A DNA stretch of 26,213 bases from IMG/VR virus record IMGVR_UViG_3300000956_000075, positions 1 to 26,213 of that record. One strand, given 5' to 3'. The notes under the pieces are model-generated. The model had not been told where the DNA came from. It saw only the letters and a list, made by a program, of their open reading frames with translations, and did no database searches. This document shows positions 3,318 to 22,181 of the stretch, piece after piece. Origin of the DNA: a virus. The translations under genes were made by a program, and so were the position numbers. Each line of letters starts with the position of its first letter. Position 1 is the first letter of the stretch.

Positions 3318-3600
3318 AATACAGAAAATTTGCGCTTAGTCTAGGTACAAAAAATGCACTTTAGTAGTTCTACCCCTAGTGTGTATGTTCTCTCTCTCTC
3401 CTCTCTCTCCTAGAGTGATCTATTAGACGTCTAGATTCTACCGGGGTAGCGCGGGCCGCCCAGGGAATTTTCGGGGCCTCGCGCGCGCCCGTGCGCATAG
3501 TGCATTTTGCTTGGTGTTTATTGTTAGCCCCTCCAGCTGGACTTCGGGAATTTTTGCCCAGGGGGTAGCGCCAACCGAGGGGAGTCTAGACGACCCTTTA
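3318..3600 (-). promoter_or_regulatory. Noncoding control region upstream of the packaging operon
   Basis: No gene is supportable in this interval between the resolvase gene and the 160-aa gene. It contains an AT-richer stretch (3318-3380) next to the start of the leftward operon, a 22-base pyrimidine tract with mirror symmetry (3389-3410, ctctctctc on either side of a centre) that could form triplex DNA, and the R1 module listed separately. I looked for -35/-10 pairs and saw no convincing consensus promoter. Its position after a long operon and before another argues for a promoter/operator region. Confidence 0.5.
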
Positions 3601-3631
3601 TTAGGACCCACTAATCCTGGTCCGCAATTCC
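3430..3631 (-). promoter_or_regulatory. Control module R1 (TCTAGA-bracketed, paired with R2)
   Basis: Reading the plus strand, the module runs: TCTAGA (3430-3435), ACCGGGGT, direct repeat ggggtagcgc (3443-3452), a gggaatttt block, alternating gcgcgcgc/gtgcgca (3481-3497), a second gggaattttt block, a second exact ggggtagcgc (3562-3571), TCTAGAC (3585-3591) and ccgcaattcc (3622-3631, inside the end of the resolvase gene). The same elements in the same order occur in R2, 18.5 kb away. Such ordered repeats fit an operator array, a phage-specific promoter, or a replication origin with iterons. Which one is not decided by the sequence. Confidence 0.55.
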
Positions 3632-4131
3632 GGCTGCGAGGCATACCTCCTCAGGAACAACAAACCATGCCGCTGCGCGTCACGACCGTGCGCCGTACCC
3701 GCCTGATACAGCCCCCACGACTTGAGCCGCACATCCGTGATGGTCTTCTTGGCTTCACTCGCTCCCTGCACCTCCACCCCCACCCCCGTCCCCCGCAGTC
3801 TGTCCTTCAGCACCGCGAGAAACCGCACCGGCTCCAGCAACCAATGATCCGTACTGTTCATCATCAGCGTGAAGCCCTCGCACCCGAACACCACGACATC
3901 CTCCTCCTCGCTCTTCTCCCACACTGCCCGACACAGATTGAGATACGAGTCGACCGACGCCGAGGTAGAGCTCCCCGTGAACTGACCCACCCGCCACCAC
4001 ATCCTCGAGACCGCCCCCACCTGCCCGCGTGCGAGGAGCTCCGAGATGTTGACGCGATGCACACTCCAGCCCGTCGTCTTCCCCGGGTCCGCCCACACCA
4101 CCACCAACGCAGGACCACCCATGACCGGCAT
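3601..4131 (-). CDS. RuvC-like Holliday junction resolvase
   Basis: A 176-aa protein of the RNase H-fold resolvase family, expected to cut four-way junctions formed by recombination and replication before packaging. The first strand carries VVWADPGKTTGWSV with Asp15 in the family's DPG-x-TTGW signature; Glu85 follows in VVFGCEGF; the C-terminal acidic site is likely the H-x2-D in TAHGRDAQRHG (His148, Asp151). Length matches phage RuvC-like proteins. The ATG at 4131 has a strong GGGGAGAAGG ribosome site; an upstream ATG at 4176 would add 15 unconserved residues. It is the last gene of the replication operon, just before control region R1, and its 3' end contributes the ccgcaattcc element of R1. 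Confidence 0.8.
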   Translation of the reverse strand: MPVMGGPALVVVWADPGKTTGWSVHRVNISELLARGQVGAVSRMWWRVGQFTGSSTSASVDSYLNLCRAVWEKSEEEDVVVFGCEGFTLMMNSTDHWLLEPVRFLAVLKDRLRGTGVGVEVQGASEAKKTITDVRLKSWGLYQAGTAHGRDAQRHGLLFLRRYASQPELRTRISGS

Positions 4132-4200
4132 ACCTTCTCCCCCTCCAGACCAACTCAAAGCCATTCTGCGCACCACACCTATACCGGGCCAGCCGAAGCC

Positions 4201-4491
4201 CTATCGCACACGCCTACGGGCAAACCAGGGCCGATTACTCCCCCATCTAAACCACCGCCACCCCCACCTACCCCGCCTATCCCACCACTCAACGGGTCTG
4301 GCCGCCGAGGGAGGCGCTGGATCCCGCCGCCACACGGACTCCAACCCGACCGGCGTCCAGCCCCCATCACCACCGCGCATCACCACCACGACGGCTCTCC
4401 CGCAGGCCCACATCTCCGCCTCCGCCCGAAAGGCCGAAGGGCCGTCAGCGCAGAGATGCACCAACGACCCTTCCGCAACTCCCCACTCCAC
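4201..4491 (-). CDS. Unknown 96-aa protein with Trp/Arg-rich C-terminus
   Basis: The GTG start at 4491 overlaps the preceding stop by one base (TAGTG). The protein begins with EWGVAEGSLVHLCADGPSAF, has a strand-like VVVVM core, and ends in a strikingly aromatic, basic stretch (EWWDRRGRWGWRWFRW). The open frame extends upstream to 4554, but that extension lies within the previous gene. No family is recognized. The C-terminus might bind nucleic acid or membranes, but the low-complexity character makes any guess weak. Confidence 0.5.
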   Translation of the reverse strand: MEWGVAEGSLVHLCADGPSAFRAEAEMWACGRAVVVVMRGGDGGWTPVGLESVWRRDPAPPSAARPVEWWDRRGRWGWRWFRWGSNRPWFARRRVR

Positions 4492-5090
4492 TACGACCGG
4501 TCCACCAGTTCGGCGCACACCGTCTCGAGGGGCATACCCAGCGCCCACCCCCAAGTGAGCAGAGCCACCCGCCAGCCCGCACCGGCGGGTCGACTGACCA
4601 CCAGCGAGTAGTCCTGCTCGAGGCCGTCGAGGGCGCTCAGCGCCTGACCCAACCGCAACGAGCTGCCGTTGTCCGGGATGAGGAACTTACGCACCGGCCA
4701 CGGGCCGTACGTCAGCTCGATGTCCGCAGCCTCCAGCCACGCCACCGCCCGCTCGGCCTCCGAACCCAACGGCACATCCGGAGCGGCACCAACCGTCATG
4801 TCCGGGCCGGGCTTCTGCGCCTCGAGCGGCTGCTCGCCGCCCGGGAACCAGGCGTACTCATCGGCGTCCATCTTGAGCGCGTCCTTGAGCTGCGGCGGGA
4901 GGTTGACGGTAATGCCCGCGCCCTCCGGGGAGTCCCCGCCGTACAGCGGGAGCTCCACCGCCACGGCCTCCGCTTCGGGCTGCCAGTGCCATTCGCTGGT
5001 CCGAGGGAGGGCGCACCGCGTCACCCCGCCGAAGTTCTCCGCGCACAGCCCGTTCTCACCACCCGGGAGAAACGCATGCACGTTTGTCAT
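4491..5090 (-). CDS. Unknown 199-aa protein with N-terminal His/Cys motif
   Basis: An acidic protein of unrecognized family. The N-terminus contains His5, Cys16, Cys26 and His35 in the arrangement H-x10-C-x9-C-A-L-P-R-x5-H, which matches a His/Cys motif also present twice in the ThyX extension and once in the Nmad1-like protein of this window, so a small zinc site is likely. The remainder has strands and helices without a catalytic signature. Its ATG overlaps the upstream stop (ATGA). It lies in the replication/nucleotide operon between two unknown genes. Confidence 0.65.
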   Translation of the reverse strand: MTNVHAFLPGGENGLCAENFGGVTRCALPRTSEWHWQPEAEAVAVELPLYGGDSPEGAGITVNLPPQLKDALKMDADEYAWFPGGEQPLEAQKPGPDMTVGAAPDVPLGSEAERAVAWLEAADIELTYGPWPVRKFLIPDNGSSLRLGQALSALDGLEQDYSLVVSRPAGAGWRVALLTWGWALGMPLETVCAELVDRS

Positions 5091-5308
5091 TTGAGCCTCC
5101 GAGCCTCGGTGTTCTGTACTCCGGCGTTCATGATGCGCGCAGCCGCTACGGCGGCCGAGGTAGCTGTCTCGATAACCCCCACAGCACCCGGGCGGGTAGA
5201 GGAGCCAGCGGCCGTACGCGTCACGGAGTACTCCGCCACCGTCCCACCCTCGTCACTCCGCAGGGTCACCGACACGGTCACCTCTGCGATGTAGCCCTCA
5301 ATCTTCAT
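5087..5308 (-). CDS. Unknown 73-aa small protein
   Basis: Starts MKIEGYIAEVTVSVTLRSDEGG, with an alternating beta-strand pattern (EGYIAEVTVSVTL, GTVAEYSVT) followed by a helix (SAAVAAARIMNAG). I chose the ATG at 5308, which is preceded by GGCGGG and overlaps the upstream gene by 11 bases; the longer frame to 5443 lies inside that gene. It resembles small phage accessory proteins with a beta-beta-alpha layout, but no family can be named. Confidence 0.6.
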   Translation of the reverse strand: MKIEGYIAEVTVSVTLRSDEGGTVAEYSVTRTAAGSSTRPGAVGVIETATSAAVAAARIMNAGVQNTEARRLK

Positions 5309-5747
5309 CAACCCGCCTACCGATCTCCCCGTTGATGGGCTGCACCGGAGCCGGGCCGAGCCCGGCCAGCGGGATAGGCGAGGGGTTGGCAGCGCCCAGC
5401 ACCGGCAGTAGACCGGCCTGTCCGCGCAGCTCCCGGGGCGCATACCCGTTGCGCTCCGCCATCGGCCGAGGGTCGAAGCCGCCCTGGGGGACCTCCACCA
5501 CGTCGACCTCGTCGACCAGCAGGTACAGCGCGGCTGCGCCAGCCGTCTTCAGCAAGGACTCCATCTCCTTGGAGTAGCTGGGCTGCCGCCTGCTCCTCGG
5601 AGTGGCGACCAACTGGTCCACTCGCTCCACCGCTCGGAACAGTTCGCGGAAGACGACCCCCGCCTCAGTAGCCCGTACCTCCTCGTGCGGCTGCTCCCAG
5701 GACCGCACCCGGCAGAGGAGGGCCTCGAGGGCCTGCTGCTTGTTCAT
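5298..5747 (-). CDS. Unknown 149-aa helical protein
   Basis: Starts MNKQQALEALLCRVRSWEQ at the ATG at 5747, which overlaps the preceding stop (ATGA). The first 85 residues are helical and the segment AAALYLLVDEVDVVEV is the most hydrophobic. The tail after residue 100 is Pro/Gly-rich (NPSPIPLAGLGPAPVQP) and probably disordered. The overlap with its neighbours on both sides puts it firmly in the operon. No function assigned. Confidence 0.6.
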   Translation of the reverse strand: MNKQQALEALLCRVRSWEQPHEEVRATEAGVVFRELFRAVERVDQLVATPRSRRQPSYSKEMESLLKTAGAAALYLLVDEVDVVEVPQGGFDPRPMAERNGYAPRELRGQAGLLPVLGAANPSPIPLAGLGPAPVQPINGEIGRRVDED

Positions 5748-5968
5748 GAGTCCCGCACCACCGTCAGGTGTGCGACCGCCTTGTCCATGGCGTCCTCCAC
5801 CGTGTCCGCCCGCAGCACGAGGTTGACCACCTCGTCGGTCTGCCGGTCGTGCATCATGGTCCCGATGCCGTTGCCGACCTGATAGGGCGGGACGACCTCC
5901 ACCACCTTGACCATCACGGTGTACCTCGGGTCGGGCTTCTTGTTGCGCTCCTCGTAACCGGTAGCCAT
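5744..5968 (-). CDS. Unknown 74-aa small protein following ThyX
   Basis: Starts MATGYEERNKKPDPRYTV. A strand-rich beginning (YTVMVKVVEVV) and a helix (TVEDAMDKAVAHLTV) give an alpha/beta mini-domain. The ATG at 5968 overlaps the ThyX stop by one base (TGATG) and is directly preceded by GGAGGAG, a strong ribosome site inside the end of thyX. Coupling to ThyX suggests a nucleotide-metabolism accessory role, but there is no motif to support a specific function. Confidence 0.6.
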   Translation of the reverse strand: MATGYEERNKKPDPRYTVMVKVVEVVPPYQVGNGIGTMMHDRQTDEVVNLVLRADTVEDAMDKAVAHLTVVRDS

Positions 5969-7383
5969 CACTCCTCCTTCTTGAACACTCGTGCAGCCGA
6001 CGGGTCCGCTGCCCACTCGCGGGGGTCGATAGCCCCCACGAACAACGGCGTAGTGCCGTCTCGGTCCACGACGACGCTCTTCGGGCCGACACCCACCACG
6101 ACCTCCTCTGGCGGTACCACGTCGTACTCGGTGCTCCACTCGCTGCTCGGCCGCCCGAGCCGCTCGTTGGCATCCACCCGAGCCCGGATGGTGCAGCCTC
6201 GGTCGAACTTGGCCATGAACCCGCACCCACCCTGCTGGTAGCACACCGGCCGGATGAGCCCAGCGAACGCCTCGTACTGCCACACATCAGTTCGCTTCCA
6301 GGGGTGTGGATCGTTATCCCCCGTCAGACCTCCCTGGATGACGTACTGGCCTTCCCCATGATCCCTCTGGCGGAACGCCTTAGCTACCCCCGCGAACGCC
6401 TGACGCCAGTGGAACTGCGCCTGCGTGCACGTGCGCTTACCGGCCTCCTGCAGCAGGGTACGCAGCGACACCGTCCAGTAGTACCGCGTCGTGATGGCGT
6501 GCACCAGCACATCCCGCGCTTCCTCCGCAGGCATGCCGAGTGCCACCAACGTGGCGTAGTTGTCCTCGCTCTGATTCATGGCCTTGCGCCACACGCCGAC
6601 TCCGGCATCCCCGTCGCCGCGCCCTGCGAGGGAGGGCGGGAGGGGGACTTCCTGCGCCCAGTCCTCCGCCACCGCAAAGCGCAACGACTCCTGCGCAAAG
6701 AAGCTGAACCGGTTGCGTACGGCCTGATGCGTGAAGGACCGCGACACGCCCTCGAGCAGGAACGTGAACTGAATAGCCTCGAGAGGCCCGTCCAGAACGG
6801 TTGCCTGCATGTCCGCCAGCATCGCGCGGCGTTCCTCGTCGGTCACCTCGGCCTTGGACCGCGCGACCTTGCCGCTGTAGATGCCACCGATGACGGCCAG
6901 GGTGCCCAGTGGGTCCACCGGCGCGTCAATCAAGGTGACCACAATCCCGCTGCGCGCCGCGTCCGGCATCGGCTGCCGCGCGTACTCCGCCACGTCGGCC
7001 ACCCGCACCACCGCGCTGGTATGCCCGTGAACGTCACACCTGGCGGGGTCTTGGCACGGCTCATCTCGCGCCTGCACTCGGCTGGGCACCCTGTGCTCGG
7101 AACGGGGGTACCCGCACACCCGCCACACACCGCCCTTGGTTGGGTCGGTCTCGCCCTGCGTTGTGCTGGCGTACGTGCAGTGGTCGCCACCCTCCGGCCC
7201 GACCAGGAAGTCATGCGGGTACCGCTTGACAAAGTGCTCCACCACACCCGGGTCAGCATGCAGGCTGCGGGGGTATCCGCAGTTAGTCGGGCCATCTGGA
7301 GACCGCACTGGCTTCTCGCAGGGACCGGAGCCCTGGTCGTCACCCCAGTACATGTGCCCGGTGATGTATTCGGGTTCGCTCAC
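5968..7383 (-). CDS. thyX: Flavin-dependent thymidylate synthase (ThyX) with N-terminal His/Cys extension
   Basis: Makes dTMP from dUMP with methylene-tetrahydrofolate, FAD and NADPH. The ThyX core starts near residue 146; the family segment is FTFLLEGVSRSFTHQAVRNR and continues to QESLRF. The RHR-x7-S signature is present as R223-N-R-x7-S233, with Asn in place of His. TTRYYWTVSLRTLLQ is the usual C-terminal helix. At 471 aa it is about twice the usual ~220-250. The extra ~145 N-terminal residues hold two repeats of H-x11-C-xn-CGYPRS-x-H (His10/Cys22/Cys35/His42 and His57/Cys69/Cys90/His97), probably zinc sites, plus a DEPC...RCDVHGH cluster. The GTG at 7383 overlaps the preceding stop (GTGA). 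It supplies dTTP for phage DNA together with the dCTP deaminase encoded in the same operon. Confidence 0.88.
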   Translation of the reverse strand: MSEPEYITGHMYWGDDQGSGPCEKPVRSPDGPTNCGYPRSLHADPGVVEHFVKRYPHDFLVGPEGGDHCTYASTTQGETDPTKGGVWRVCGYPRSEHRVPSRVQARDEPCQDPARCDVHGHTSAVVRVADVAEYARQPMPDAARSGIVVTLIDAPVDPLGTLAVIGGIYSGKVARSKAEVTDEERRAMLADMQATVLDGPLEAIQFTFLLEGVSRSFTHQAVRNRFSFFAQESLRFAVAEDWAQEVPLPPSLAGRGDGDAGVGVWRKAMNQSEDNYATLVALGMPAEEARDVLVHAITTRYYWTVSLRTLLQEAGKRTCTQAQFHWRQAFAGVAKAFRQRDHGEGQYVIQGGLTGDNDPHPWKRTDVWQYEAFAGLIRPVCYQQGGCGFMAKFDRGCTIRARVDANERLGRPSSEWSTEYDVVPPEEVVVGVGPKSVVVDRDGTTPLFVGAIDPREWAADPSAARVFKKEE

Positions 7384-7514
7384 TTCTTGCCCCTCTTGGG
7401 TGGCTTGGCGGTCTTCTTGGGTGTGTACTTCGGCTTCTGCGGCTGCATCGGCGGAGTGGTGCTGCGCCCGCCCTTGTCCGGGCTACGCCCGAAGAGCTTG
7501 TCGATCCATTTCAT
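7380..7514 (-). CDS. 44-aa Lys/Pro-rich basic peptide
   Basis: A very small gene between the MazG-like gene and thyX: begins MKWIDKLFGRSPDKGG and ends in a Lys/Pro-rich tail (TPKKTAKPPKRGKK). The stop overlaps the thyX GTG. Only two bases separate it from the preceding stop, so reinitiation is likely; the upstream ribosome site is weak. Extreme basicity suggests nucleic-acid binding or a disordered linker function. Supported mainly by perfect operon packing. Confidence 0.5.
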   Translation of the reverse strand: MKWIDKLFGRSPDKGGRSTTPPMQPQKPKYTPKKTAKPPKRGKK

Positions 7515-7516
7515 GG

Positions 7517-8044
7517 CTACAGCTTCTTGCCTCCGTGCCGGTGTTCCCGGCTCTCGTTGTACTTGGCCTTAGCCAGCATGGCAGCTTCGATGTCGATGCC
7601 ATAGTGCCCGCACATGTCCAGTACACGAATGATGATGTCGGCAAGCTCCACCGGGATACCGTGGGGCTTAGCCTCGAACCCGTACTCCGCCGCGTTGAGC
7701 GCCGTGATGCGCACCCGGCCAGCCCCGTCGTACAGGTCTGCCCAGACATCGCGACCCTGGTGCACGACCCGCTCCACCCGCGCGCCACCTGGGCGAGCGA
7801 TGAACTGCCACCGGATCTCCCGGGGGTTCATGCCACCCCGGTAGTCCTCGAGCGCCTCAGACGCTTCACTGTGCACCAGCGCAATGAGGTCCGAGAAGGT
7901 TCTGTCCACCATGGCGGTAACCGGCCTGCCGTGCAACGGCAGTGCCACGATGCGTTCCTGCGGCTCCCACCAGCCCTTCTCCTCCGCAGTACGGTGCACC
8001 GCGTCACGGGCCAGGTTGAAGCCTTCAAACTGATACTCGGTCAC
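7517..8044 (-). CDS. MazG-like nucleotide pyrophosphohydrolase
   Basis: A 175-aa all-alpha NTP pyrophosphohydrolase, expected to hydrolyse (d)NTPs to monophosphates and pyrophosphate. The metal-binding pattern is visible as SEASEALEDYRGG in the first helix pair and GIPVELADIIIRVLDMC in the second, the E-x2-E ... E-x2-D arrangement of the MazG/dUTPase-2 superfamily. The C-terminus (AKAKYNESREHRHGGKK) is typical of single-domain phage members. The GTG start at 8044 overlaps the upstream stop (GTGA). With ThyX and dCTP deaminase it fits a dNTP-pool module; other phage MazG proteins have been linked to (p)ppGpp levels, so the true substrate is open. Confidence 0.75.
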   Translation of the reverse strand: MTEYQFEGFNLARDAVHRTAEEKGWWEPQERIVALPLHGRPVTAMVDRTFSDLIALVHSEASEALEDYRGGMNPREIRWQFIARPGGARVERVVHQGRDVWADLYDGAGRVRITALNAAEYGFEAKPHGIPVELADIIIRVLDMCGHYGIDIEAAMLAKAKYNESREHRHGGKKL

Positions 8045-8298
8045 GACACAATCTCCTTAAGGGCGTACACGAGGCCGCCCACAGCCATACCGCCTACCAC
8101 CAACACATCCAAGCAACCGTCCTTGGCATGCTTGCCACCCTTGCCGAGATGCTTCCCTCCCTTCTGCACGCTGTTCGGGGATGGCTTAGCCTTGCCGATG
8201 TAACCCAACTCTGTGGCCTCCCGGCCTAGTACGCCAGCCCCTTTGCCAGCGTTGAGTGCCCCGATGCCGATCTGTGAGCGCACACCGGGGCGAGCCAA
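8041..8298 (-). CDS. Small membrane protein with Gly/Lys repeats, unknown
   Basis: Up to 85 aa. The frame opens with TTG at 8298 directly after the upstream stop (TAGTTG); an in-frame GTG at 8283 is an alternative start. The N-terminal half is Gly/Lys-rich and contains a short repeat (KGGKHLGKGGKH). The C-terminal third is a predicted transmembrane helix (CLDVLVVGGMAVGGLVYAL). It directly follows a secreted-protein gene, so the two may act together at the cell envelope, which is inference. Confidence 0.5.
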   Translation of the reverse strand: MARPGVRSQIGIGALNAGKGAGVLGREATELGYIGKAKPSPNSVQKGGKHLGKGGKHAKDGCLDVLVVGGMAVGGLVYALKEIVS

Positions 8299-8754
8299 CT
8301 ACAGCAGGCGAACGGAGATGCTGTTCGCGACGTTGCTCACGTTGCCCCACGAGGTTGTTCGTAGGTCCGGGTCGGAGTACTCGACGTCGGCCCAGTACCA
8401 CGGGACCGGTGTTCCGACGCAGCCGTCGTTGGGCCACAGCTTGACCGTGAAGCTGTCCATGGCCGTCTCGCCGTACGTGGTCGGGTTGACGACGATGCTA
8501 CTGATGCGGTTGATCTGCGATGACGGCAGGGTGTAACACCCGTTACTCTGCTCGGCGATCCAGATCATGTCGAACTGCGTCCACCAGTACGTCCCGTAGT
8601 CCGTCCCGTCGAAGACGCAGACCATGCCGTAGCCGCTGTAGCTGGCGCTGTCCGCACAGCCGTGAATGGTGTTGGCCTGTGCCGGGCTGGACGCTGTGAA
8701 GCTGGCTACGAGCAACGCGATGAGCGTGCCCAGAGTAACAAACGCTCTCTTCAT
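8299..8754 (-). CDS. Secreted crystallin-like protein (peptidase inhibitor I36-like)
   Basis: A 151-aa exported protein. It begins MKRAFVTLGTLIALLVASF, a Sec signal peptide with a likely cleavage after SSPAQA (about residue 27). The mature part contains two sequence halves resembling beta/gamma-crystallin motifs: CVFDGTDYGTYWW followed by INRISSIVV, and a second half ending VANSISVRLL. This is the pattern of Streptomyces I36-type inhibitors, with conserved aromatic-Gly-aromatic turns and paired cysteines. The ATG at 8754 has GGGAG upstream. A secreted protein inside a replication operon is unusual and suggests a moron-type cargo gene acting on host envelope proteases or on competitors; the family match is moderate. 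Confidence 0.65.
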   Translation of the reverse strand: MKRAFVTLGTLIALLVASFTASSPAQANTIHGCADSASYSGYGMVCVFDGTDYGTYWWTQFDMIWIAEQSNGCYTLPSSQINRISSIVVNPTTYGETAMDSFTVKLWPNDGCVGTPVPWYWADVEYSDPDLRTTSWGNVSNVANSISVRLL

Positions 8755-8850
8755 GAGCTCCCTTTCTGCCGGGTACCTCCCGGCTATCGCAGAGCCAGCC
8801 AACCATGGCCATACCCCAGCGGGCAAGCCACCACAGTGTCCAGTACCCCG
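8755..8850 (-). other. Leader of the secreted-protein gene with a small hairpin
   Basis: This 96-base gap is the largest in the middle of the operon. At 8768-8784 a 6-bp gccggg/cccggc stem with a 5-nt loop lies a few bases upstream of the ribosome site of the secreted-protein gene. There is no T-run, so it is not a terminator. It may modulate translation. I see no convincing promoter, although a separate promoter for the cargo gene would be expected here if one exists. Confidence 0.35.
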
Positions 8851-9582: not shown

Positions 9583-10247
9583 GCGTCATCCCGAGTGTTC
9601 ACGCGCGGTTTGATGTACAGCTGTTCCCGGGCGTCCTGGTGCAGATAGTAACCGAAGTGCCCGTAGGTGCTCTGGCAGGTCTGCGCGTGTACGAAGCCCT
9701 GATTGCCCAGATGCCGGATAGCCATCGAATACGACCGGTGCTTACCCTCTGCACCTTGGATGTTCGTAGCCTTGAAGCTCAGGTGAGGGACGGGGAAGAG
9801 ATGGCTGCCCGACGAGTACGGCCGCTCACCGTCAGGCCACAGTGACGCGTGCAGTGGGCTGAAGCCGGGGCGCATGTCCTCCTCGCCCTCGCTCATAATC
9901 ATGACCTCCAGGCGGTACCGCTTCTTGGGGTGGCGCAGGAACATGTACGCCACGAAGTACCGGGTGCCGAACGGGTTGGTGTACACGAGGTCTTCGGCCT
10001 CATTGAACACCTGCCAACCGGCCACCTCCAGCGCCTCCACCAGGCGTGCCCGGTGGAACAGACTGGGCACCATGATGGCCGCCTCGTCGAAGTTGCAGCC
10101 GTACGGCAGGTCGCCGGTGTAGCGCGCGAACCTGGCCTCCAGCTTCAGGATGTTCTCCTCCACCGCCTCCCGCATGTTCCAGCAGAACGGCTGGCTGGCG
10201 TTCGGTACGCCCTCCGCCACTCCGTTCAATGTGTCCGGGATACCCAT
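9579..10247 (-). CDS. Unknown 222-aa protein
   Basis: No family recognized. The N-terminal half has helices (MREAVEENILKLEARF) and an alpha/beta segment (ARLVEALEVAGWQVFN); the C-terminal half is rich in His, Tyr and Gln (QTCQSTYGHFGYYLHQ). The RLEVMIMSEGEED stretch looks like a strand leading into an acidic loop. The ATG at 10247 overlaps the polymerase stop by one base (TGATG) and its own stop overlaps the SDR start, so it is translated between DNA polymerase and SDR. Possible partner of the SDR by context only. Confidence 0.65.
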   Translation of the reverse strand: MGIPDTLNGVAEGVPNASQPFCWNMREAVEENILKLEARFARYTGDLPYGCNFDEAAIMVPSLFHRARLVEALEVAGWQVFNEAEDLVYTNPFGTRYFVAYMFLRHPKKRYRLEVMIMSEGEEDMRPGFSPLHASLWPDGERPYSSGSHLFPVPHLSFKATNIQGAEGKHRSYSMAIRHLGNQGFVHAQTCQSTYGHFGYYLHQDAREQLYIKPRVNTRDDA

Positions 10248-12583
10248 CAGTTGCTCTCCTTAGGTGTCAACACGTACAGCTCCGTTGCGTAGATGGCCCG
10301 CCGATACTCGCTGCGCTTGTACCCGCGAACCAACAGCAGGTCCTTCTTGGGATCCATGTCCCAGATGTCCTCCTTGAACTTCTCGTACAGACCGCCGTAC
10401 CTGTGCACCGTCACGACCAGCGGTCCCGTCTCATCCTCCCCGGTGATGACCACGTAGTTGACGTACTGCGGTTCCTTGACCTTCTTGGGGTCAAGCTCTT
10501 CACCGGTGCGCGACCGGTGCAGCTCGTAGATGTCCTTGAGGTTGCGGTTGACCACCCGACCCACCCACACGTGCTCGCCGGGCTTCGCCTCGTACGGCAC
10601 GTCCTCACTGCGAGAGGCGGGGAAGGGGAGGTGTGCCCGGTCGCCGTTCTTGCCGATCCACCAACGGATAGCCGCGAGCTGCCGCGCCAGCGTATACACC
10701 CCGAACGGGTCGTCCTGCGCGCAGAACTCCGTCACCTTCTTGATGGTCCCGGGGCCGATGCCCTTGACCTCCAGATAGTCTTCCCACTCCACCCGGGTGT
10801 CCAGCGCGGTGCGTTGCACCTCCTCGCGCCACGCCAGCATCGCCTCGGCCGTAGTGGCCCCGATGCCGGGCACCTGCACCAGGCCCGCGAGTAGCGCGTC
10901 ACCCTTGATGGACCACTGCGCACTACTCTCCAACGGGTGCGGCGGCAGGACCTTGATGCCCTTAGCCGCGCACTCCTTGAGAATGTCCAGCGCCTTCTCC
11001 TTATGGTTCGGCCCGCTGAACTTCTGGAGAGACGCACAGTAGAACGCTAACGGGTGGTTCTGTTTCAGCCACATGCACCAGTAGGCCAGCATCCCGTAAG
11101 AGACACAGTGGGCAGCATTGAAGGCGTACGCACCAGCCGTGACCAGTTGTTTCCAGACCTTGGCCGCAACAGTCTCGCGTACGCCGAGGGTAGAAGCCCC
11201 ATCCATGAACTTCGACTGCAACCGGTTGAACGCCTGCTCGCCTTGCTTCTTGCTGATTAGCTTGCGGACCAGCGCGGCTTCTTCCCAACTGAACCCTCCC
11301 AGCTCCCGCACCACTCGCAGGATCTGTTCCTGGTACACAATCTGACCGTTAGTGTGCGCCGTGATGTCACTGACCACGGGGTGTAGTTGTTCTACGATCT
11401 TCTTCCCGTGCTTGGCCATGATGTACTCAGCCGCAGCACCGGAGTGTAGCGGACCCGGTCGCGCCAACGCATTGATATCGCAAACTTCAGCGAACGTATC
11501 GGGCTTGACCTCACGGTTAACACTGCGCATAGCCCGGCCATCGAACTGGAAAATGCCAATGACTTCGTTACGTCGGAACCCCTCGTATACCTTTTGGTCG
11601 TCCAGCGGTACTGCATACAGCTCCTCGAGGGTCATGCCGATGATGCCCAGCGCGATACGTATGAGACCCATGGTGGTAAGGCCCAGAGCATCAATCTTGA
11701 GAACGTTGAGGTACTCAGCGTCATACTTGTCGATACTCAGGGCCGTACCGATGAGCTTACCGGTGCCGTCCTTGCTGGGCTCTCGGCGCGTGTATACGGC
11801 TAGGTTGTCTGTCAGTTTTCCATTTGCCACCACCAATCCGGCTGCGTGCACCGAGAAGCCCTTGAGGTTACCCTCGAGGCGCTGGGCGTTCTCCAGGTCC
11901 GGGTACCGGTGGAATACCGCCTCGACCTTAGGGAACAGTGACCGGGAGTCCTCAATGGTCTGGCCGTACCGCAGGTCGCCAGAGGAACGCTCGAGTAGCC
12001 CTCCCTTGATCTCCTCCACCGCAGATACCGGCACGTTGTACACCCGTGCCACATCATCGAGACTGTTCTTGCCTCGGTACATGGTGAACGTACCGATGTT
12101 ACCTACCCGCTCCGCGCCGTACTTGCCGACCAGATACTCCCGCACCCGGTAGCGCAGGTCGTCGTCGAAGTCCAGGTCAACGTCCGGCAGGTCGTGCCGG
12201 TTGATGTCGATGAACCGCTCGAAGATGAGGTTGGGAAACAGCATCGGGTTTACCTCGGTGATGCGCAGCAGCCAGCACACCAACGACGCTGCGGCCGAAC
12301 CACGGGCCGGGCCGACCGGGATGCCGTTGTCCTTGCTCCAGCGCACCATGTCCGAGATGACAAGGAAGTAGTCCTCGAAGCCCTTGAGCAGGATGAGCTC
12401 GAGCTCGTACTTGACGCGGGTCAGGTACTTCTCCCGCTCTTCGCCCCGCAGCCGACCGAGGCCTCGGTACTTCCACCCCTGTCGCACCCACGAGTTCAGC
12501 AGGGTCCGGCTGTCTACTCTGCGGGGAGGGTGTGACAGGGAGGTAGATCCGTTACGCCGTCTGCGAAGCGCTGTCTTCGTCAT
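10247..12583 (-). CDS. dnaE: DNA polymerase III alpha subunit, polymerase part (no PHP domain)
   Basis: The C-family replicative polymerase core, 778 aa, without the usual N-terminal PHP domain. It carries GPARGSAAASLVCW (residues 91-104), the catalytic pair in PDVDLDF (Asp136, Asp138) and the third aspartate in LKIDALGL (Asp298), so it should be active. Thumb and fingers follow (INALARPGPLHSGAA; YGMLAYWCMWLKQNHP), then a helix-hairpin-helix segment (LEVKGIGPGTIKKV near 640) and an OB-like C-terminal domain. It is shorter than bacterial DnaE after PHP removal, lacking an obvious tau-binding region. The ATG overlaps the 49-aa gene (ATGA). The PHP domain is the separate gene at 12726-13640, so the enzyme is encoded in two pieces that presumably assemble. 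Confidence 0.92.
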   Translation of the reverse strand: MTKTALRRRRNGSTSLSHPPRRVDSRTLLNSWVRQGWKYRGLGRLRGEEREKYLTRVKYELELILLKGFEDYFLVISDMVRWSKDNGIPVGPARGSAAASLVCWLLRITEVNPMLFPNLIFERFIDINRHDLPDVDLDFDDDLRYRVREYLVGKYGAERVGNIGTFTMYRGKNSLDDVARVYNVPVSAVEEIKGGLLERSSGDLRYGQTIEDSRSLFPKVEAVFHRYPDLENAQRLEGNLKGFSVHAAGLVVANGKLTDNLAVYTRREPSKDGTGKLIGTALSIDKYDAEYLNVLKIDALGLTTMGLIRIALGIIGMTLEELYAVPLDDQKVYEGFRRNEVIGIFQFDGRAMRSVNREVKPDTFAEVCDINALARPGPLHSGAAAEYIMAKHGKKIVEQLHPVVSDITAHTNGQIVYQEQILRVVRELGGFSWEEAALVRKLISKKQGEQAFNRLQSKFMDGASTLGVRETVAAKVWKQLVTAGAYAFNAAHCVSYGMLAYWCMWLKQNHPLAFYCASLQKFSGPNHKEKALDILKECAAKGIKVLPPHPLESSAQWSIKGDALLAGLVQVPGIGATTAEAMLAWREEVQRTALDTRVEWEDYLEVKGIGPGTIKKVTEFCAQDDPFGVYTLARQLAAIRWWIGKNGDRAHLPFPASRSEDVPYEAKPGEHVWVGRVVNRNLKDIYELHRSRTGEELDPKKVKEPQYVNYVVITGEDETGPLVVTVHRYGGLYEKFKEDIWDMDPKKDLLLVRGYKRSEYRRAIYATELYVLTPKESN

Positions 12584-12729
12584 TCTACGGTCTCCAGGAA
12601 GTCGTGCACGAGCTTGGCAGGTTCACGGGGGTCTTCGGGGGGAACCTCCCGCATCCACTTGGCGAACTCGATCATGAGCAGCCAGCTAGGCTCGAGCGGC
12701 TCTCCCGGCTTCTTGAACTTCAACGTCAC
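12580..12729 (-). CDS. 49-aa protein encoded between the two DNA polymerase pieces
   Basis: A short acidic/helical protein (starts MTLKFKKPGEPLEPSW, ends PAKLVHDFLETVE) whose GTG at 12729 overlaps the PHP stop (GTGA) and whose TGA overlaps the polymerase ATG (ATGA). It therefore sits with no gap between the PHP and polymerase genes. It shows no homing-endonuclease or intein motifs. The helix IEFAKWMREV could contact either polymerase piece. An accessory subunit of the split enzyme is an attractive inference; the alternative is a small unrelated cistron. Confidence 0.6.
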   Translation of the reverse strand: MTLKFKKPGEPLEPSWLLMIEFAKWMREVPPEDPREPAKLVHDFLETVE

Positions 12730-13640
12730 CACGTCAGTTCATCCTCCGTGCCCGGATACACGAGATCTTTAAGCTTAGGCAGCGTGACGTCGCACCTATC
12801 GGCAATTTCCAGACTAGCAGCCAGCGCTCCTTCCGCTGTACTGCTACGTAGCCCGGTCTCCAGGAGTCCGGAGAATACGGCATCACCCGTTTGATGCGCC
12901 AGTACGATCCCGTATTCCCAGCTCTGCGCCTGAGCCTCGACCGTGTTCGAACGGCCCCCGCGATCGATGGCGTGTAGGAGCGGGTAGATATCCTGGTCAG
13001 TCTCGCGCGGGTAATGTACGTCGCCCGTTGCGACCAGTGGGATGTTAAGGCGCGATCCGATGCGCGCAACAGCCCGGTTGTACGCGCGCTGCTTGTCAAG
13101 CAATGGGTGCGCCTGAACCTCGAGATAGTATCGGTCACCGAACACCTCGCGGAACTGTGCAGCGACGCGCGCACCACTCCTAATGTCCGCCGCCTTCTCG
13201 TCTTCACCTTTCCCTCCCATCACAGCGGTGGCCAGCCTGCCTCCCAGGCACCCCGAAAGCACGATTAGCCCCTCGTGATGGTCCGTCAGGATATCCCCGG
13301 TAGTGGTTGGCTTATATCGGAAGTTCTCCCAGCTCTTACTGACCACTGCGTAAAGATTGCTCAGGCCGGTCTGGTCCATCGCTAGTACGGTCAGGTGATG
13401 CTTATACCGCCCACCCTCATCCCCCGTTTCGCAGTACAGCTCGCACCCGAAGATGGCCTTGACGCCGGTAGCCTTCGCAGCCTGCTCGGCCTTGACGTGG
13501 CTGCTGACGTTGCCGTGCTCGGTAAACGCTCGAGCCGTGATACCCATCTCTGCGCACACCTGCATGTGGTCCCCCGGCATCATGAACCCATCCCCCGGCG
13601 AGAAGGTGGTATGCGCGTGTAGCTCTGCACGCGGTCTCAC
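12726..13640 (-). CDS. PHP domain of DNA polymerase III alpha (separate gene, probable proofreading nuclease)
   Basis: A 304-aa stand-alone PHP domain matching the N-terminus of DnaE. All metal-ligand motifs are intact: ELHAHTTFS (His8, His10), TEHGN (His42), GCELY (Glu67), HHLTVLA (His82), LSGCLGG (Cys131), EVQAHP, and GDVHYPRETD (Asp207, His209). Active PHP domains with full ligand sets are 3'-5' exonucleases that proofread, whereas the E. coli copy has lost ligands; activity here is therefore likely. The protein ends TLPKLKDLVYPGTEDELTW, exactly at the PHP-to-palm linker of full-length DnaE. GTG at 13640 overlaps the upstream stop. Partner: the polymerase at 10247-12583. Confidence 0.9.
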   Translation of the reverse strand: MRPRAELHAHTTFSPGDGFMMPGDHMQVCAEMGITARAFTEHGNVSSHVKAEQAAKATGVKAIFGCELYCETGDEGGRYKHHLTVLAMDQTGLSNLYAVVSKSWENFRYKPTTTGDILTDHHEGLIVLSGCLGGRLATAVMGGKGEDEKAADIRSGARVAAQFREVFGDRYYLEVQAHPLLDKQRAYNRAVARIGSRLNIPLVATGDVHYPRETDQDIYPLLHAIDRGGRSNTVEAQAQSWEYGIVLAHQTGDAVFSGLLETGLRSSTAEGALAASLEIADRCDVTLPKLKDLVYPGTEDELTW

Positions 13641-13834: not shown

Positions 13835-13842
13835 TGCCACCT

Positions 13843-14352: not shown

Positions 14353-14361
14353 GGCGCGTTC

Positions 14362-16975: not shown

Positions 16976-17853
16976 ACTTCACCCCTCGCCATCGCGGAGT
17001 AGAGGCCGGTAGGCGTACGCCACGGACCAGGCATTGCCCCCATGAGGGTCTGCCCCATCACCTGAGCGAACATCGTGTCTCCCCTGTGCAGGTTCATGGG
17101 TGTAGGGCGTACCCAGATGTCTGCTGTGCGCTCGAGGCCCATCTCCGGGAAGGCTTGCCACGCAGGCTCTTTCAACCGAGGCTCGTTCACTTCCCGCCAG
17201 TGCTTGCCTGCAAACGCGTCTCTTATCCGGTGGAACCTGTACGGCATCACGGCTTGCACGCCGTACTTGGCGCAGAGCTTCTGAACAGCCAGGCAGTTCC
17301 CTCGGTCCTCCGTCCAGTAGATGTGCCGGAGGTCGTCGATGCGCTTGGCGTCCTGGTCATAACGCACGTGCTTGCGCTCGATGCCCGGGATACCTCGCGC
17401 TCTGTCGTAGTTGCGGCTGATCCAGTTTCCGTTGATGTAGTACCCGTCGGCCTGGTCGCCAGTCAGCAGCACCTCGACGCCGTACTTGGAGGCCGTCTTT
17501 GCGATGGCGGTCATGGGTGCCATGCTCTCCACCTGCATCTTGGTCTTGTAGCCAAGACGGATGACCCTTCGCGCTGCACCCTCAAAGCCCTCCCGGGTCA
17601 TCGGGAAGTGCACCGGGATGAACGGTAGTCCCAGCTTCTCCGCGTTGTGCTTGGCGTACAGGAAGTCGGTGCTGGTATGCGTGTCCGGGGTGTAGCTCAG
17701 CACGATAGGCCGGACGCTCGCCCGCAGGCAGGCGGCCAGCAGCGTGCAGGAGTCCACCCCGCCGCTGAGGGCAATCCCGATGTTCTTACGAGGGAGATTC
17801 ACCGCCTGGTTCACCAGGGCTCTGCGCAGGTGGACAGACAGCTTTGCATTCAC
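16972..17853 (-). CDS. Asparagine-synthase-like PP-loop ATPase (no glutaminase domain)
   Basis: A 293-aa ATP pyrophosphatase that would adenylate a carboxylate or carbonyl substrate for amination or ligation. The PP-loop SGGVDS is at residues 30-35, followed by the LSYTPDTHTS strand-loop, and LLTGDQADGYYING (129-142) corresponds to the SGDGADE segment of asparagine synthetase. The N-terminal glutamine amidotransferase domain is absent, so ammonia or another amine must come from elsewhere. GTG at 17853 overlaps the FAD protein stop. Together with that FAD protein it forms a two-gene enzymatic pair inside a replication operon; a role in nucleotide or DNA modification is possible. QueC- or thiolation-type PP-loop enzymes are less likely because the cysteine pairs they need are missing. 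Confidence 0.75.
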   Translation of the reverse strand: MNAKLSVHLRRALVNQAVNLPRKNIGIALSGGVDSCTLLAACLRASVRPIVLSYTPDTHTSTDFLYAKHNAEKLGLPFIPVHFPMTREGFEGAARRVIRLGYKTKMQVESMAPMTAIAKTASKYGVEVLLTGDQADGYYINGNWISRNYDRARGIPGIERKHVRYDQDAKRIDDLRHIYWTEDRGNCLAVQKLCAKYGVQAVMPYRFHRIRDAFAGKHWREVNEPRLKEPAWQAFPEMGLERTADIWVRPTPMNLHRGDTMFAQVMGQTLMGAMPGPWRTPTGLYSAMARGEV

Positions 17854-18686
17854 GACAACACCTTCAGCGTGTCGTAGTACGCGGTGTGCACCAGCACACC
17901 CTTCTCCCACCGCCCGAACCGACCCAGTCGGTGAACGTTGTTGCGACGCGCCCGCACCCGCAGCCAGCACGTGCAATCGGTGCTCAGAGGCTTGCTGACG
18001 GGCACAACCCCTCGGATGGGTGGCTTGTTACCCCCGGGCCACTCGAGCGTGCTGTAGCCGAACACAGTCGCCGCGCGGTACCAGGAGGTATCCCGGTCGC
18101 CGTTGCACACCACCGTGTTCTCCGGCGGAGCGTACGGGAACTCCCGCTCACCCTGGTCCTGCTCCCGGGCACCCATGGCCCAGATGCGCGCACTGGAGAA
18201 CTTGTGGTTTTCCATGTCCCGACAGATGGCCGGGGCCGGGATGGTCACCAGGATTGGCCCGGGGTTTTCGAACACCGCCTGGGCCGACAGCGGGTTCAGG
18301 CTGATGGGCACGATGCGGCTACGCCAGTGGTCCCACAGCACGTCGTACACCCGGCGCAGGTCCCAGGCAGCATGGTCGCCCTCCGGGCCGTACTCATCGG
18401 CGCTGGTCGGTCCCTGGTACCCGTTTCCGTACACCTTGGCGCGGTACCCGTCCACCGGACCGACCACGTCGTACTTGACCGGCACCCAACCGTCCCGCAT
18501 CTGCCCCACGCCAGGGATGTAGGCGTGCAGGTACTGACAGCCAAACAGGTCGCTCTTGGCAGGCTTGCCGTCCTTGTCCGGCCTGCTCACCACGATGACC
18601 TCATACCCCTTGGTCATAGCGGCATGCGCGGCCAGCAGACCGGCCGGGCCAGCCCCGAGAACCATCACTCTCTTACTGCCGAACAT
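17850..18686 (-). CDS. FAD/NAD(P)-binding oxidoreductase-like protein
   Basis: A 278-aa protein with an N-terminal dinucleotide-binding fold: VMVLGAGPAGLLAAHAA (residues 8-24), then EVIVVSRPDKD at the end of the second strand. Downstream segments GPILVTIPAPAICRD and NTVVCNGDRDTSWYRAATVF resemble the substrate/FAD region of small flavoprotein oxidoreductases. It overlaps the PP-loop gene (GTGA) and is fused by a 1-base overlap to the primase-helicase (TAATG). FAD-dependent enzymes of this size occur in hypermodified-thymidine pathways of some phages, but that link here rests on context only. Confidence 0.7.
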   Translation of the reverse strand: MFGSKRVMVLGAGPAGLLAAHAAMTKGYEVIVVSRPDKDGKPAKSDLFGCQYLHAYIPGVGQMRDGWVPVKYDVVGPVDGYRAKVYGNGYQGPTSADEYGPEGDHAAWDLRRVYDVLWDHWRSRIVPISLNPLSAQAVFENPGPILVTIPAPAICRDMENHKFSSARIWAMGAREQDQGEREFPYAPPENTVVCNGDRDTSWYRAATVFGYSTLEWPGGNKPPIRGVVPVSKPLSTDCTCWLRVRARRNNVHRLGRFGRWEKGVLVHTAYYDTLKVLS

Positions 18687-21538
18687 TACTCATCCTCCAG
18701 GTCCCGCACCGTTGCGATCAACTGCGGCATCATGCTCATGTATCCCTTGCTACGTCGGCGAACCATGCCCATGCGCAGGAGCTCCGCGACTACCTGACCG
18801 GCCATGTCCTTCTCCATACCGCCGAACTCCTCGAAGTCCCGGGCTCGGAACTGCGTGTCGTTGATCACTGTCTTGAGTGCGCGCAGCACCCCGTCATGGC
18901 TGAGCAGGAACCGGCGACATGTCTCCGCGTATTCCTCGGCCGCCTGCCGCGCCCGAATCTCCTTACGACTGTGGTCAGCGTAACCGAACCACCTCTTGCC
19001 GTACACCATGTCGAGGAGCTCCACTGCGGCTGTGACGTGCTCCTGTTCTACCAACACCTTCAGGCCGGTGCCGTCGTGACTGAACAGCCGCGCAGCCACC
19101 GCCACGGCAAGCCGCGCCAGCTTCATGCGCACGTTCTCCGGCTGAATGAGCGGTGGGTCGGCTACGTACCTCCCGCCCACTTCCTCGGCGCAGGCCAACA
19201 CGTGCCGCTCTACCCCTTTGCCCCACACGATTTGCTCGGGGGTGCGACTCCAGGCCCAGGTGACCAGCGCACTGCTCAGCTCCCGGGTGGCCCGGTGCTG
19301 CGCCCGGGGAGGGGTGGCACTGTTGATGACGTTGGACTGTACGTCGTCCTGCGCAGCCACCATCGCGAAGTCAAAGCGCGCGATGTCCTCCGGGTTGGTG
19401 ATGAGCTTCGCGATGGCATCGATAGCCCCGTTGTTGGTCTCCCGGATGAACCGGCCGTCTACAGGGTTCCCGATCCAGATGGTGCGGGTGCGCGCGAACG
19501 TCTCCTGGCTGACAATCTTGCTGATCTGGGCCTTGCCGGAGCTGCGCACTGCACTCATCTGCTCGATGATGTTCTTGTCCGAGATACCGGACACCTCGTC
19601 GAGAATTACAAGTCGGCGGTCCTGTAGGGGAATCGTGCCCCAGGTGATGACCCAGTTGTTGCCGATCTGCTGTGCGCCACCAACCAGTCCAGCGAGGGTG
19701 GCTCCTTCGCAGCTCTTGAGGACGCCGCACTGATAGTGATGGCGCAGCCGCTCCGCAGCTTCACTCTTACCCGTTCGGGTGTCTCCCATGACCAGAAGCT
19801 CGAGCCAACCCTTACCGATACGCTGACCCCGGAAGGTGAAGTCCAGGACCGAGTGCCACACCAGGTCATAGGAGATGTGGAGCTCTGGTCTACCGTAGAT
19901 ATGAGTGACGTTTGCAGCCAGGTCCCGAGCCAGCTCTTGCAGCTTATCCATAGGCTTCTGCCCTGGTCTCGGCTGGAATACGCTCTCCAGAGCTCCACGC
20001 AGGTCCTCCGTCATCTCGAACACGTCGAGGCTGGTCTTAGTCTCTTCAAACCCCCAGCTCTGGAACACCACCTTGGCATCACGCGGGCTGGCTGTGCTCA
20101 CGCCGGTAAGCCGCGCCGTGGTATTGACCGGCGTCAGCTTGCCCATCTCGCTCACATTGAACACCCGGCGCAGCACGTGCTCCCCGTCGCCTTCATCCGG
20201 GTCATCTACGTTAGGCACAACCGCCAGCTCATCGATGCGCCATTGCTCCGTGAGCGTGACCTCAACGCGCGGGCATGTGCCGGGTACCTCGACGGACTTC
20301 AGGAGCTCCGCCTGCCGCTGGTCCTCAGGACGCTCCATCATCTTGAGCACCACCGGGTCGTCGGCAGGTATCTCGCCCTTGTGCGCACCGCCCCACATCA
20401 TCTCCATCGGGCACCGACCGCACTTCGGCTTCTGCCAGTCCTGCCCGCAGTGCAGTTCGTACCTGCGGGGGAGGGCGCTGGGGGTGGCGCTACGGCCGCT
20501 CACAGTGGCGACCATGCTGATGGGCTTGTCCAGCAGGCCCGGCGAGAAGGACTCCCGCATCTTGATCTCGGGTACGTCCGCGTTGGCGCGGCCGTTGCTC
20601 AGCTTGCGCTCGCGGTACGGCGGAGTGGACTTGCACAGGTCGATGAAGTTCTGCCGCCCGTAGCCCTGACTGACAAAGTAGTCCGTCATGTCGCTGCCCT
20701 TGACGCTCATGGGCCACTTCACAATGAACACCTGCTTGGCCACCGAGCGCAGCTGATTACCGACCTTCCGTGCGCCTGCCTCTCCCTGGTCATCCAGGTC
20801 GTAGCAGATGTACACGATCTTGCCGACAAACAGGCCGTTCCACTCCGGCAACCAAGTGCCCGCCCCTGCGGTGGCGGTGAGGGTCGGGAATAGGTACTGC
20901 CGACCGAGAAGCTTGTCCATCTCTCCTTCGGTCAGGAAGACCCGGGGCTGCTTCAGGGCGTCCATGCCGTACAGCGTTGCATCGCCGTACCCCGGCCAGT
21001 TCACCATCTTGTTGACCTTGGAGCCGAAGGCATACCGGCGGATGTTCACCAGTTCCTTGAGGTCGCTGTACACCGGGATGGTGATGCGCTCTCCGTCATA
21101 CCCGATGCGGTACCGCGCGAACGTGGTGCGGTTCAAGCCGCGCTTAGTCAGTAGCTCCTGCATCAGGTCGCGCTTACCCAACAGCCGGTGATGCCATTCG
21201 TTTATCTGCTCTTCATCCGGCAGTGCTACCGTCCGGCCTTGCTGACGGGCCTTGCGCTTACGCCGTTGTGCGGCCAACTGGTCTGTGCCGGTCGGGTCAA
21301 TGCGCCGCTCTGGCTGCTTACCCTGGTCCATCAGGGCTACTAGCTGGGCAATGGAGTACCCGCCGCACCGGCTGAAACACATGAACTTACCCGTGCTGAA
21401 ATTGAAACTCGCGCTCGGGGTCTTGCTGGACATGGGGTCCTCGTGCAGCGGGCAGTAAGAGCGCGTCTCGCCTTCCTGCTCCTCCCCGGTCAGCCACGCT
21501 CGGAAATTAGCGCGCCAGCCATCGCCGCGTGTGGCCAT
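18686..21538 (-). CDS. DNA primase-helicase fusion: CHC2 zinc + TOPRIM primase with MCM-like AAA+ helicase
   Basis: A 950-aa replication protein combining priming and unwinding. A CHC2-type zinc site is at Cys29, His32, Cys54, Cys58. The TOPRIM domain has TEGEMDK (Glu205) and YDLDD (Asp247, Asp249). A second zinc-like cluster (Cys364, Cys373, Cys376, Cys422) precedes the AAA+ domain, with Walker A GDTRTGKS (585-592), Walker B LVILDE (643-648), sensor Asn691 and IARFDFAMVA (719-728), which matches the arginine-finger RFD motif of MCM helicases; the following ARLAVAVAARL ... TAAVELLD block fits the MCM sensor-2 helices, and a winged-helix-like C-terminus closes the protein. This differs from DnaB-type T7 gp4 fusions. 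It starts two bases after the regulator gene stop. Confidence 0.88.
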   Translation of the reverse strand: MATRGDGWRANFRAWLTGEEQEGETRSYCPLHEDPMSSKTPSASFNFSTGKFMCFSRCGGYSIAQLVALMDQGKQPERRIDPTGTDQLAAQRRKRKARQQGRTVALPDEEQINEWHHRLLGKRDLMQELLTKRGLNRTTFARYRIGYDGERITIPVYSDLKELVNIRRYAFGSKVNKMVNWPGYGDATLYGMDALKQPRVFLTEGEMDKLLGRQYLFPTLTATAGAGTWLPEWNGLFVGKIVYICYDLDDQGEAGARKVGNQLRSVAKQVFIVKWPMSVKGSDMTDYFVSQGYGRQNFIDLCKSTPPYRERKLSNGRANADVPEIKMRESFSPGLLDKPISMVATVSGRSATPSALPRRYELHCGQDWQKPKCGRCPMEMMWGGAHKGEIPADDPVVLKMMERPEDQRQAELLKSVEVPGTCPRVEVTLTEQWRIDELAVVPNVDDPDEGDGEHVLRRVFNVSEMGKLTPVNTTARLTGVSTASPRDAKVVFQSWGFEETKTSLDVFEMTEDLRGALESVFQPRPGQKPMDKLQELARDLAANVTHIYGRPELHISYDLVWHSVLDFTFRGQRIGKGWLELLVMGDTRTGKSEAAERLRHHYQCGVLKSCEGATLAGLVGGAQQIGNNWVITWGTIPLQDRRLVILDEVSGISDKNIIEQMSAVRSSGKAQISKIVSQETFARTRTIWIGNPVDGRFIRETNNGAIDAIAKLITNPEDIARFDFAMVAAQDDVQSNVINSATPPRAQHRATRELSSALVTWAWSRTPEQIVWGKGVERHVLACAEEVGGRYVADPPLIQPENVRMKLARLAVAVAARLFSHDGTGLKVLVEQEHVTAAVELLDMVYGKRWFGYADHSRKEIRARQAAEEYAETCRRFLLSHDGVLRALKTVINDTQFRARDFEEFGGMEKDMAGQVVAELLRMGMVRRRSKGYMSMMPQLIATVRDLEDE

Positions 21539-21540
21539 AT

Positions 21541-21795
21541 TTACCGACTCTCGAACTCATTGGGCTTCCCTGCACGAATGCACTGAACGGCGTAATGGGC
21601 ATACTCTTCGATGCGCTTGTCCACCGGCCAGCCATTGGCCCGCAGGCCGTCTTGCACTACGCGGCGCACCGTGGCCATCCCGGACTCGCCGTCCTGCGCT
21701 ATCTTCGCCAGCGCAAAGCGGTCCTCCGGAGCGAGCCTGGTCTTAACGATGACGCGCTCGAAGCCGTAACCCTGCGAAAGGGTGTCGTCGGTCAT
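21541..21795 (-). CDS. Ribbon-helix-helix-like DNA-binding regulator
   Basis: An 84-aa protein starting MTDDTLSQGYG. The segment GFERVIVKTRLAPEDRFALA has a beta strand then a helix, followed by GMATVRRVVQDGLRA, giving the strand-helix-helix layout and hydrophobic spacing of Arc/CopG-type repressors; the C-terminal helices (KRIEEYAHYAVQCI) could aid dimerization. The ATG at 21795 has a strong GGAGG. It is the first gene of the replication operon and lies immediately downstream of module R2, so it may autoregulate R2 and act on R1. Confidence 0.6.
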   Translation of the reverse strand: MTDDTLSQGYGFERVIVKTRLAPEDRFALAKIAQDGESGMATVRRVVQDGLRANGWPVDKRIEEYAHYAVQCIRAGKPNEFESR

Positions 21796-22181
21796 TACCC
21801 TCCTTCCCTTACACACATACACAAGACACATCAACAGAGAGATAGTGTTCGTGTACTCGGTTGCTACCGGGCATTGGGCAGCCCGGTAACCGTACCTTGC
21901 GCAGGCCCTTGGTTTGGGTCTTTCTTGGCGTCCTTTTGATCCCCTAGGCACCGTCTAGAATCCACCGGGGTGCGCCGGGGCGGCCAGCCAAAAATTCCCG
22001 CCTCACGTGCGCGTGCGCGCACATACGGGGCCAGCTAAATTTTCCCTGGGGTAGCGGGCTGGCCGTGGTTCTTCTAGACAAAACCCGCAATTCCTGAGTT
22101 CTGAACGGGTACCCCTACGCGGGTGCCCCCTCCCATGCTCTCACCCCGCAGAGGTCATCTGAGGCCCGATTGCAGGGCATG
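21796..22181 (-). promoter_or_regulatory. 386-base noncoding control region before the replication operon
   Basis: No supportable gene. It contains, in transcription order, a segment with an inverted acccctacgcggg element (about 22110), the R2 module, a 5'-untranslated region with a hairpin at 21858-21892 (8-bp taccgggc/gcccggta plus a 5-bp outer stem across a 2-nt bulge), and the ribosome site of the regulator gene. I did not find a confident -35/-10 pair. The strong terminator at 22182-22207 insulates it from upstream transcription, so a promoter must lie here. Confidence 0.55.
21954..22094 (-). promoter_or_regulatory. Control module R2 (paired with R1)
   Basis: Reading the plus strand: TCTAGA (21954-21959), ACCGGGGTGCGCC, ggccagccaaaaattccc, a 23-base perfectly alternating purine/pyrimidine tract (22004-22026), ggccagctaaattttccc, ggggtagcgg (22048-22057), TCTAGACA (22073-22080) and ccgcaattcc (22085-22094). 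The two ggccagcyaaa-type blocks are direct repeats. Order and content parallel R1. Interpretation as operator array, promoter or origin is open. Confidence 0.55.

Follow-up and report, generated by a model that had tools for sequence, protein, structure and literature searches.

In satellite phage P4, two separate cis regions, ori and crr, carry the same repeats and are bound by the alpha protein, a primase-helicase. Phage SPP1 contains two origins, oriL and oriR, located 12-13 kb apart, which have a like organisation (repeats and an AT-rich unwinding element) and are both bound by gp38; the second origin is thought to stall forks and to switch replication to concatemer synthesis (PMC6316719, PMC3485210). 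The origins of SaPI and SCCmec elements are short repeats beside a primase-helicase or helicase gene (Rep, Cch2), and the C-terminal domain of the protein binds the repeats (PMC7581432). In actinophages of clusters EF and K, the SAS/ESAS motifs have a length of 13 bp and are found at ribosome-binding sites, about ten per genome (PMC7302621). The paper on Krampus and AnnaSerena deals with SAS/ESAS motifs and not with the arrays reported below, and no description of these arrays was found in the literature on Krampus, Krampusvirus, Wollypog and actinophage origins.

The window analysed here is the whole virus record IMGVR_UViG_3300000956_000075 (26,213 bp), which is possibly incomplete, as are some of the contigs compared with it. 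It carries two non-coding sites, R1 and R2, that match the SPP1 plan in number, build and placement, as known here from sequence comparison. In both systems two distant, like-built sites combine repeats with an AT-rich element in a lytic, headful, one-strand genome; one site is tied to the replication genes, the other is intergenic on the late side, and a Holliday junction resolvase is encoded (PMC6316719, PMC3485210). There is no sequence relation to SPP1, the two sites are 16-24 kb apart across genomes rather than 12-13 kb, and their arrays are inverted. The first SPP1 origin lies inside the initiator gene, whereas R2 is intergenic, upstream of the primase-helicase operon, and SPP1 has a DnaB-type helicase and a separate initiator where a DnaG-MCM fusion is present here. 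SaPI and SCCmec also have short repeats adjoining a primase-helicase gene, but their origin is single and downstream of the gene, their helicases belong to other families and there is no second copy. P4 is alike in its two separate repeat-bearing cis regions and its primase-helicase, but differs in helicase family and is a small satellite genome. SAS/ESAS motifs are repeated and non-coding too, and occur in the same Krampus group (PMC7302621); in contrast, R1 and R2 number two per genome, measure about 100-160 bp and lie away from start codons.

Anatomy of R1 and R2 in the window

All genes of the window are oriented leftwards, and R1 and R2 are about 18.5 kb apart (Table 1). An earlier note, made from the window alone, had described them as gene-free regions at operon boundaries sharing an ordered set of motifs. 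Both gaps were confirmed, but they are larger than it gave, and its R1 enters the RuvC gene by 31 bp. Each site is indeed upstream of a leftward operon, on the packaging side for R1 and of replication genes for R2.

Table 1. Features at and around R1 and R2 (window coordinates).
Feature	Position	Strand	Remarks
Small gene after R1	2826..3317	-	N-terminus looks RHH-like by eye only; matched nothing in Pfam or PHROG
AT-rich stretch beside R1	3314..3373		Highest AT content of any 60 bp in window (65%); candidate unwinding element
R1 non-coding gap	3318..3600		Between RuvC-like gene and packaging-side operon leading to large terminase; ORF map
R1 array	3430..3590		TCTAGA-bounded; GGGGTAGCG twice, GGGAATTTT twice, GC-rich core; leave-one-out profile E 7.8e-4
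RuvC-like gene	3601..4176	-	Directly upstream of R1; position common to close relatives and Wollypog
Primase-helicase fusion (DnaG-type and MCM-type) with winged-helix-like region at C-terminus	18686..21538	-	Candidate initiator
Small gene after R2	21541..21795	-	RHH-like by eye only
R2 non-coding gap	21796..22221		Upstream of replication operon; ORF map
AT-rich stretch beside R2	21808..21867		Second most AT-rich place in window (57%)
AAGACC-N22-TACGGT	21889..21922	-	Probable promoter of replication operon
R2 array	21954..22078		TCTAGA-bounded; GGGGTGCG/GGGGTAGCG, GCCAGC/GCTGGC arms, AAAAATTCCC/AAATTTT blocks; leave-one-out profile E 4.5e-10
Alternating purine/pyrimidine tract	22004..22027		24 nt, centre of R2, longest in window
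Conserved linear box GCCCCGGCATCGGGCCTCAGATGACYTCTGCGGGG..GGGAGGG	22115..22182	-	Between terminator and R2 array
Intrinsic terminator GGGGCTGCCTTCGGGCAGCCTCTTTTT	22182..22209	-	Ends gene upstream of R2; similar hairpins at same spot in relatives

The listed motifs were found at their places in both sites, and their order was correct except for CCGCAATTCC and the alternating purine/pyrimidine tract. TCTAGA occurs four times in the 26 kb (3430, 3585, 21954 and 22073) and GGGGTAGCG three times, always on the plus strand (3443, 3562 and 22048), all within R1 or R2. ACCGGGGT is located at 3440 and 21964, with two further matches elsewhere (857 and, reversed, 7835). The TCTAGA-to-TCTAGA spacing does differ between the sites, being 155 bases in R1 and 119 in R2 and not about 160 and 124. 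The alternating tract holds for R2; the one in R1 is 10 nt long and ranks 18th in the window. CCGCAATTCC was rejected as a shared element: in R1, at 3622, it belongs to the end of the RuvC coding sequence (PELRTR), it is absent from R2 of the relatives, and its presence in both sites is incidental. The aligned relatives showed no sign of the MetJ-like AGACGTCT that overlaps R1.

When R1 and R2 were aligned with each other, as the earlier note had proposed, their local alignment was the best of the window, scoring 43, and windows clear of both reached no more than 35. They have 22 seven-mers in common, while each of about 400 random windows had at most 16 in common with R2. An all-against-all comparison of 8-mer bins within the window alone did not rank the pair first, the method being too blunt for the window, and the case for R1 and R2 rests on the exact motifs and on conservation. 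No 7-mer cluster was detected at R1 or R2 by a whole-window iteron scan. R1 and R2 of the window are a nested dyad with a few repeated words. Clean short iterons are lacking in the window clade, which counts against the reading as origins with iterons. Near and distant nucleotide searches of the INPHARED phage collection, with the window and with R1 and R2, gave no match. An Rfam scan gave no family match in R1 or R2; only a tRNA gene at the right end of the window (26012-26081, minus strand) reached the gathering score.

Conservation and co-variation of the two sites

IMG/VR contains four near relatives of 62-65 kb, whose primase-helicases are 73-75% identical to that of the window, besides numerous relatives at greater distance. 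Each of the four carries a like-built element both behind the RuvC-like gene and in front of the primase operon. From the outside inwards it consists of CTAG-bearing arms, GCCAGC/GCTGGC arms, an A-tract and T-tract, and a core like CCTCGCGTGCGCGCACGCGAGG. The letters of the arms vary by copy, such as GCCTCCTAGATCCCCG/CGGGGATCTAGGAGGC in R2 of genome G004 against ATTCTCTAG/CTAGAGAAT in R1 of G002, and in G001 CAGTAC replaces TCTAGA at both sites. In a leave-one-out test, the elements of four genomes were made into a profile, with which the remaining genome was searched in full. R1 and R2 were the two best places genome-wide in five of five genomes, with E from 4.5e-10 to 0.045, and nothing else in any of the five was below E 0.05. 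This result gives two copies per genome and no third, in sequences of which the window and some contigs may be incomplete. The search for further copies that the earlier note had called for ended with R1 and R2, GGGGTAGCG and TCTAGA in the window being confined to them as well.

Terminal inverted repeats around CTAG would suit two insertions of a small mobile element. Such an origin of R1 and R2 is hardly credible, since synteny disfavours it: the same two positions are occupied in all genomes, there is no third copy, and the ends differ among phages.

Cultured phages with a replication protein at about 40% identity are the Krampus group (Microbacterium) and Wollypog (Arthrobacter). Krampus, TinyMiny, Hager and Wollypog carry unrelated-looking arrays at the same two positions. 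In Krampus, ATTGTGG has 14 copies in 56.7 kb, all in two clusters, one upstream of the primase-helicase gene and the other in the gap that separates the last gene from gene 1 and precedes the terminase operon. In seven genomes (Krampus, TinyMiny, Hager, Wollypog, G008, G009 and G012), 8-mers of the R2 region recur at one other place, which is the R1 position, about 10 SD above background. The recurrence is weaker in G011, and no pair was detectable in the more distant G014, G018, G017 and G005. The distant arrays are opposed sets of short repeats, the left set having CACAAT words and the right set ATTGTG words (CTCAG/CTGAG in G011). Several short repeats beside the helicase gene are clear in Krampus, TinyMiny, G009, G011 and G012. 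Wollypog also has, after the endolysin gene, a very GC-rich non-coding region of 1.3 kb rich in alternating CG words (L077:22266-23558).

The repeat words differ among phages and are common to the two sites within each phage. In 10 of 11 genomes, the 7-mer overlap of R1 is larger with the R2 of its own genome than with any other R2. Such a pattern is expected of two sites bound by one evolving protein. The genomes compared are related, so counts across them are not independent. The pair is kept at both positions although the letters change, which agrees with the conservation in relatives that had been put forward as a check.

Complementary arms with letters that vary among phages could also arise in a transcribed hairpin, an RNA leader or bidirectional terminator selected for base pairing, and R2 of G004 folds into an almost complete hairpin. 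However, the sense strand has no advantage in total fold energy across eight elements (about -545 vs -575 kcal/mol), and in ten dyads the sense-strand mismatches are A-C in 45 cases and G-T in 24, the reverse of what a sense RNA would need. The Krampus-type arrays are repeats of one short word, and a normal terminator already precedes R2. We consider a hairpin RNA very improbable. Exactly two sites per genome, co-variation within genomes and symmetry at the DNA level with no sense-RNA bias strongly support R1 and R2 as paired, protein-recognised DNA sites, as the earlier note had suggested from the motifs.

Sequence features and proteins beside the sites

In 9 of 13 genomes the R1 array is directly adjoined by the most AT-rich 60 bp of the genome, and in one more the adjoining stretch ranks second; at R2 the stretch ranks fifth or better in 9 of 13. 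Against its value as a sign of an origin, GC-rich phages in general are apt to be AT-rich in their largest non-coding gaps. In G001 neither stretch stands out. In nearly every genome, purine-pyrimidine runs (AGAGAG/TCTCTC or TCTTCTTC) are found in the AT-rich stretch after the R1 and R2 arrays. The strongest coding-strand GC skew over 4 kb is within 2 kb of R1 in 12 of 13 genomes, in the window around 3510. There is no sign change of the skew at R1 or R2, so it is a hint only and no proof of a bidirectional origin.

A putative promoter, AAGACC-N22-TACnGT, is present exactly once per genome in five of five window-clade genomes, always at R2. Because it is at R2 only, it is not what R1 and R2 have in common. 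The box between the terminator and the R2 array (GCATCGGGCCTCAGATGACYTCTGCGGGG) is conserved better than the array itself. As it has almost no compensatory pairs, we make no claim of a structured RNA.

The earlier note had left the choice between an operator/promoter system and paired origins. R1 and R2 may be operators of one phage regulator that switches the replication and packaging operons, with no role in initiation. Both sites are directly upstream of operons, where operators also sit and which counts against origins, and -10-like boxes are nearby; one regulator would also account for the co-variation of two sites within a genome, and in the window clade a small gene follows each site. 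On the other hand, R1 and R2 are unlike in how the array, the promoter-like box and the start codon are ordered and spaced, whereas the array with its AT-rich stretch is constant. At R2 the AT-rich stretch falls within the leader, downstream of the promoter-like box. No other operon start was found to carry a third array, and a symmetric array of 100-150 bp is large for an operator. Operators are the leading alternative, possible but rather unlikely as the sole function. Paired origins appear to be the better fit, because both copies share the array and the AT-rich stretch and the promoter-like motif is at R2 only. The two readings are not exclusive. Phage origins often overlap promoters.

The RHH protein at R2 had been named as a candidate binder. 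This is unsupported: neither Pfam, nor a PDB profile search, nor a confident model backs the RHH fold of the small genes beside R1 and R2. As a general binder it was rejected, since no RHH-like gene adjoins R1 or R2 in the Krampus/Wollypog group.

The primase-helicase gene comes after R2 and its small follower gene. Using an alignment profile, residues 144-307 of the protein matched DnaG (2au3, E 8.8e-14) and residues 536-691 matched MCM2 (6u0m, E 1.4e-6). Its predicted model matched DnaG with Z 20 over 206 residues (rmsd 3.0) and MCM with Z 15-16.5 over about 400 residues (rmsd 5-9). The AAA part of the model is poor, with pLDDT below 50 across much of 608-740, and the assignment of this region therefore rests on the sequence match. 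At the C-terminus the AF2 model has helices at 882-922 and a two-strand wing at 926-936 (pLDDT about 83-90). This winged-helix-like region is a plausible candidate for the DNA-binding part, judging from the model; MCM proteins have such a C-terminal DNA-binding domain anyway. Homologues of the primase-helicase at 30-75% identity are present in many phage contigs.

R1 and R2 as candidate replication origins

The best single reading of R1 and R2 is a pair of candidate replication origins with one initiator and a late role for R1, to which we give a probability of about 0.52. R1 and R2 would be two copies of one phage replication-initiation site in a genome that is probably circular in the cell, each with a symmetric array of binding sites and an AT-rich stretch able to melt. 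One phage initiator would recognise both, and as its specificity drifts both copies would change together. R2, beside the primase-helicase gene, may serve as the early (theta) origin. The role of R1, which adjoins the RuvC-like gene and precedes the packaging genes, may be that of a late origin or fork barrier that leads to concatemers for headful packaging. The initiator is probably the adjacent DnaG-MCM fusion, the likeliest candidate. A further and more doubtful proposal is that the fusion loads itself as oppositely facing hexamers on the inverted arrays at the two origins, without an ORC/Cdc6-like loader, and that its specificity has been repeatedly replaced with both origins following in step.

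The position of R1 just ahead of the terminase operon would also suit a packaging start (pac), R2 being a relic or a second packaging or partition site. The cultured relatives are lytic and circularly permuted (PMC7302621), and the latter fits pac. A pac function would not explain why a copy next to the primase gene is maintained equally well or why the AT-rich stretches are there, and no partition genes were seen; we regard it as highly unlikely.

If the reading as paired origins is right, candidate origins are located for a large group of actinobacterial phages for which none was found described, including Microbacterium phages that are tractable in the laboratory. The SPP1 two-origin plan would have a second, unrelated case. 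The phages would also provide a natural series for the co-evolution of an initiator with two distant sites, possibly with an MCM-type helicase in bacteria.

Two other features of the window were observed. The DnaE-type polymerase is split over two adjacent genes, at 10247-12583 (main part) and 12726-13640 (PHP part); the split is the same in relatives and was published for Krampus. A gene at 650-1105, kept in relatives, adjoins the large terminase gene and encodes a JAB/MPN-like protease fold with the motif HSHPGGKPDPS.
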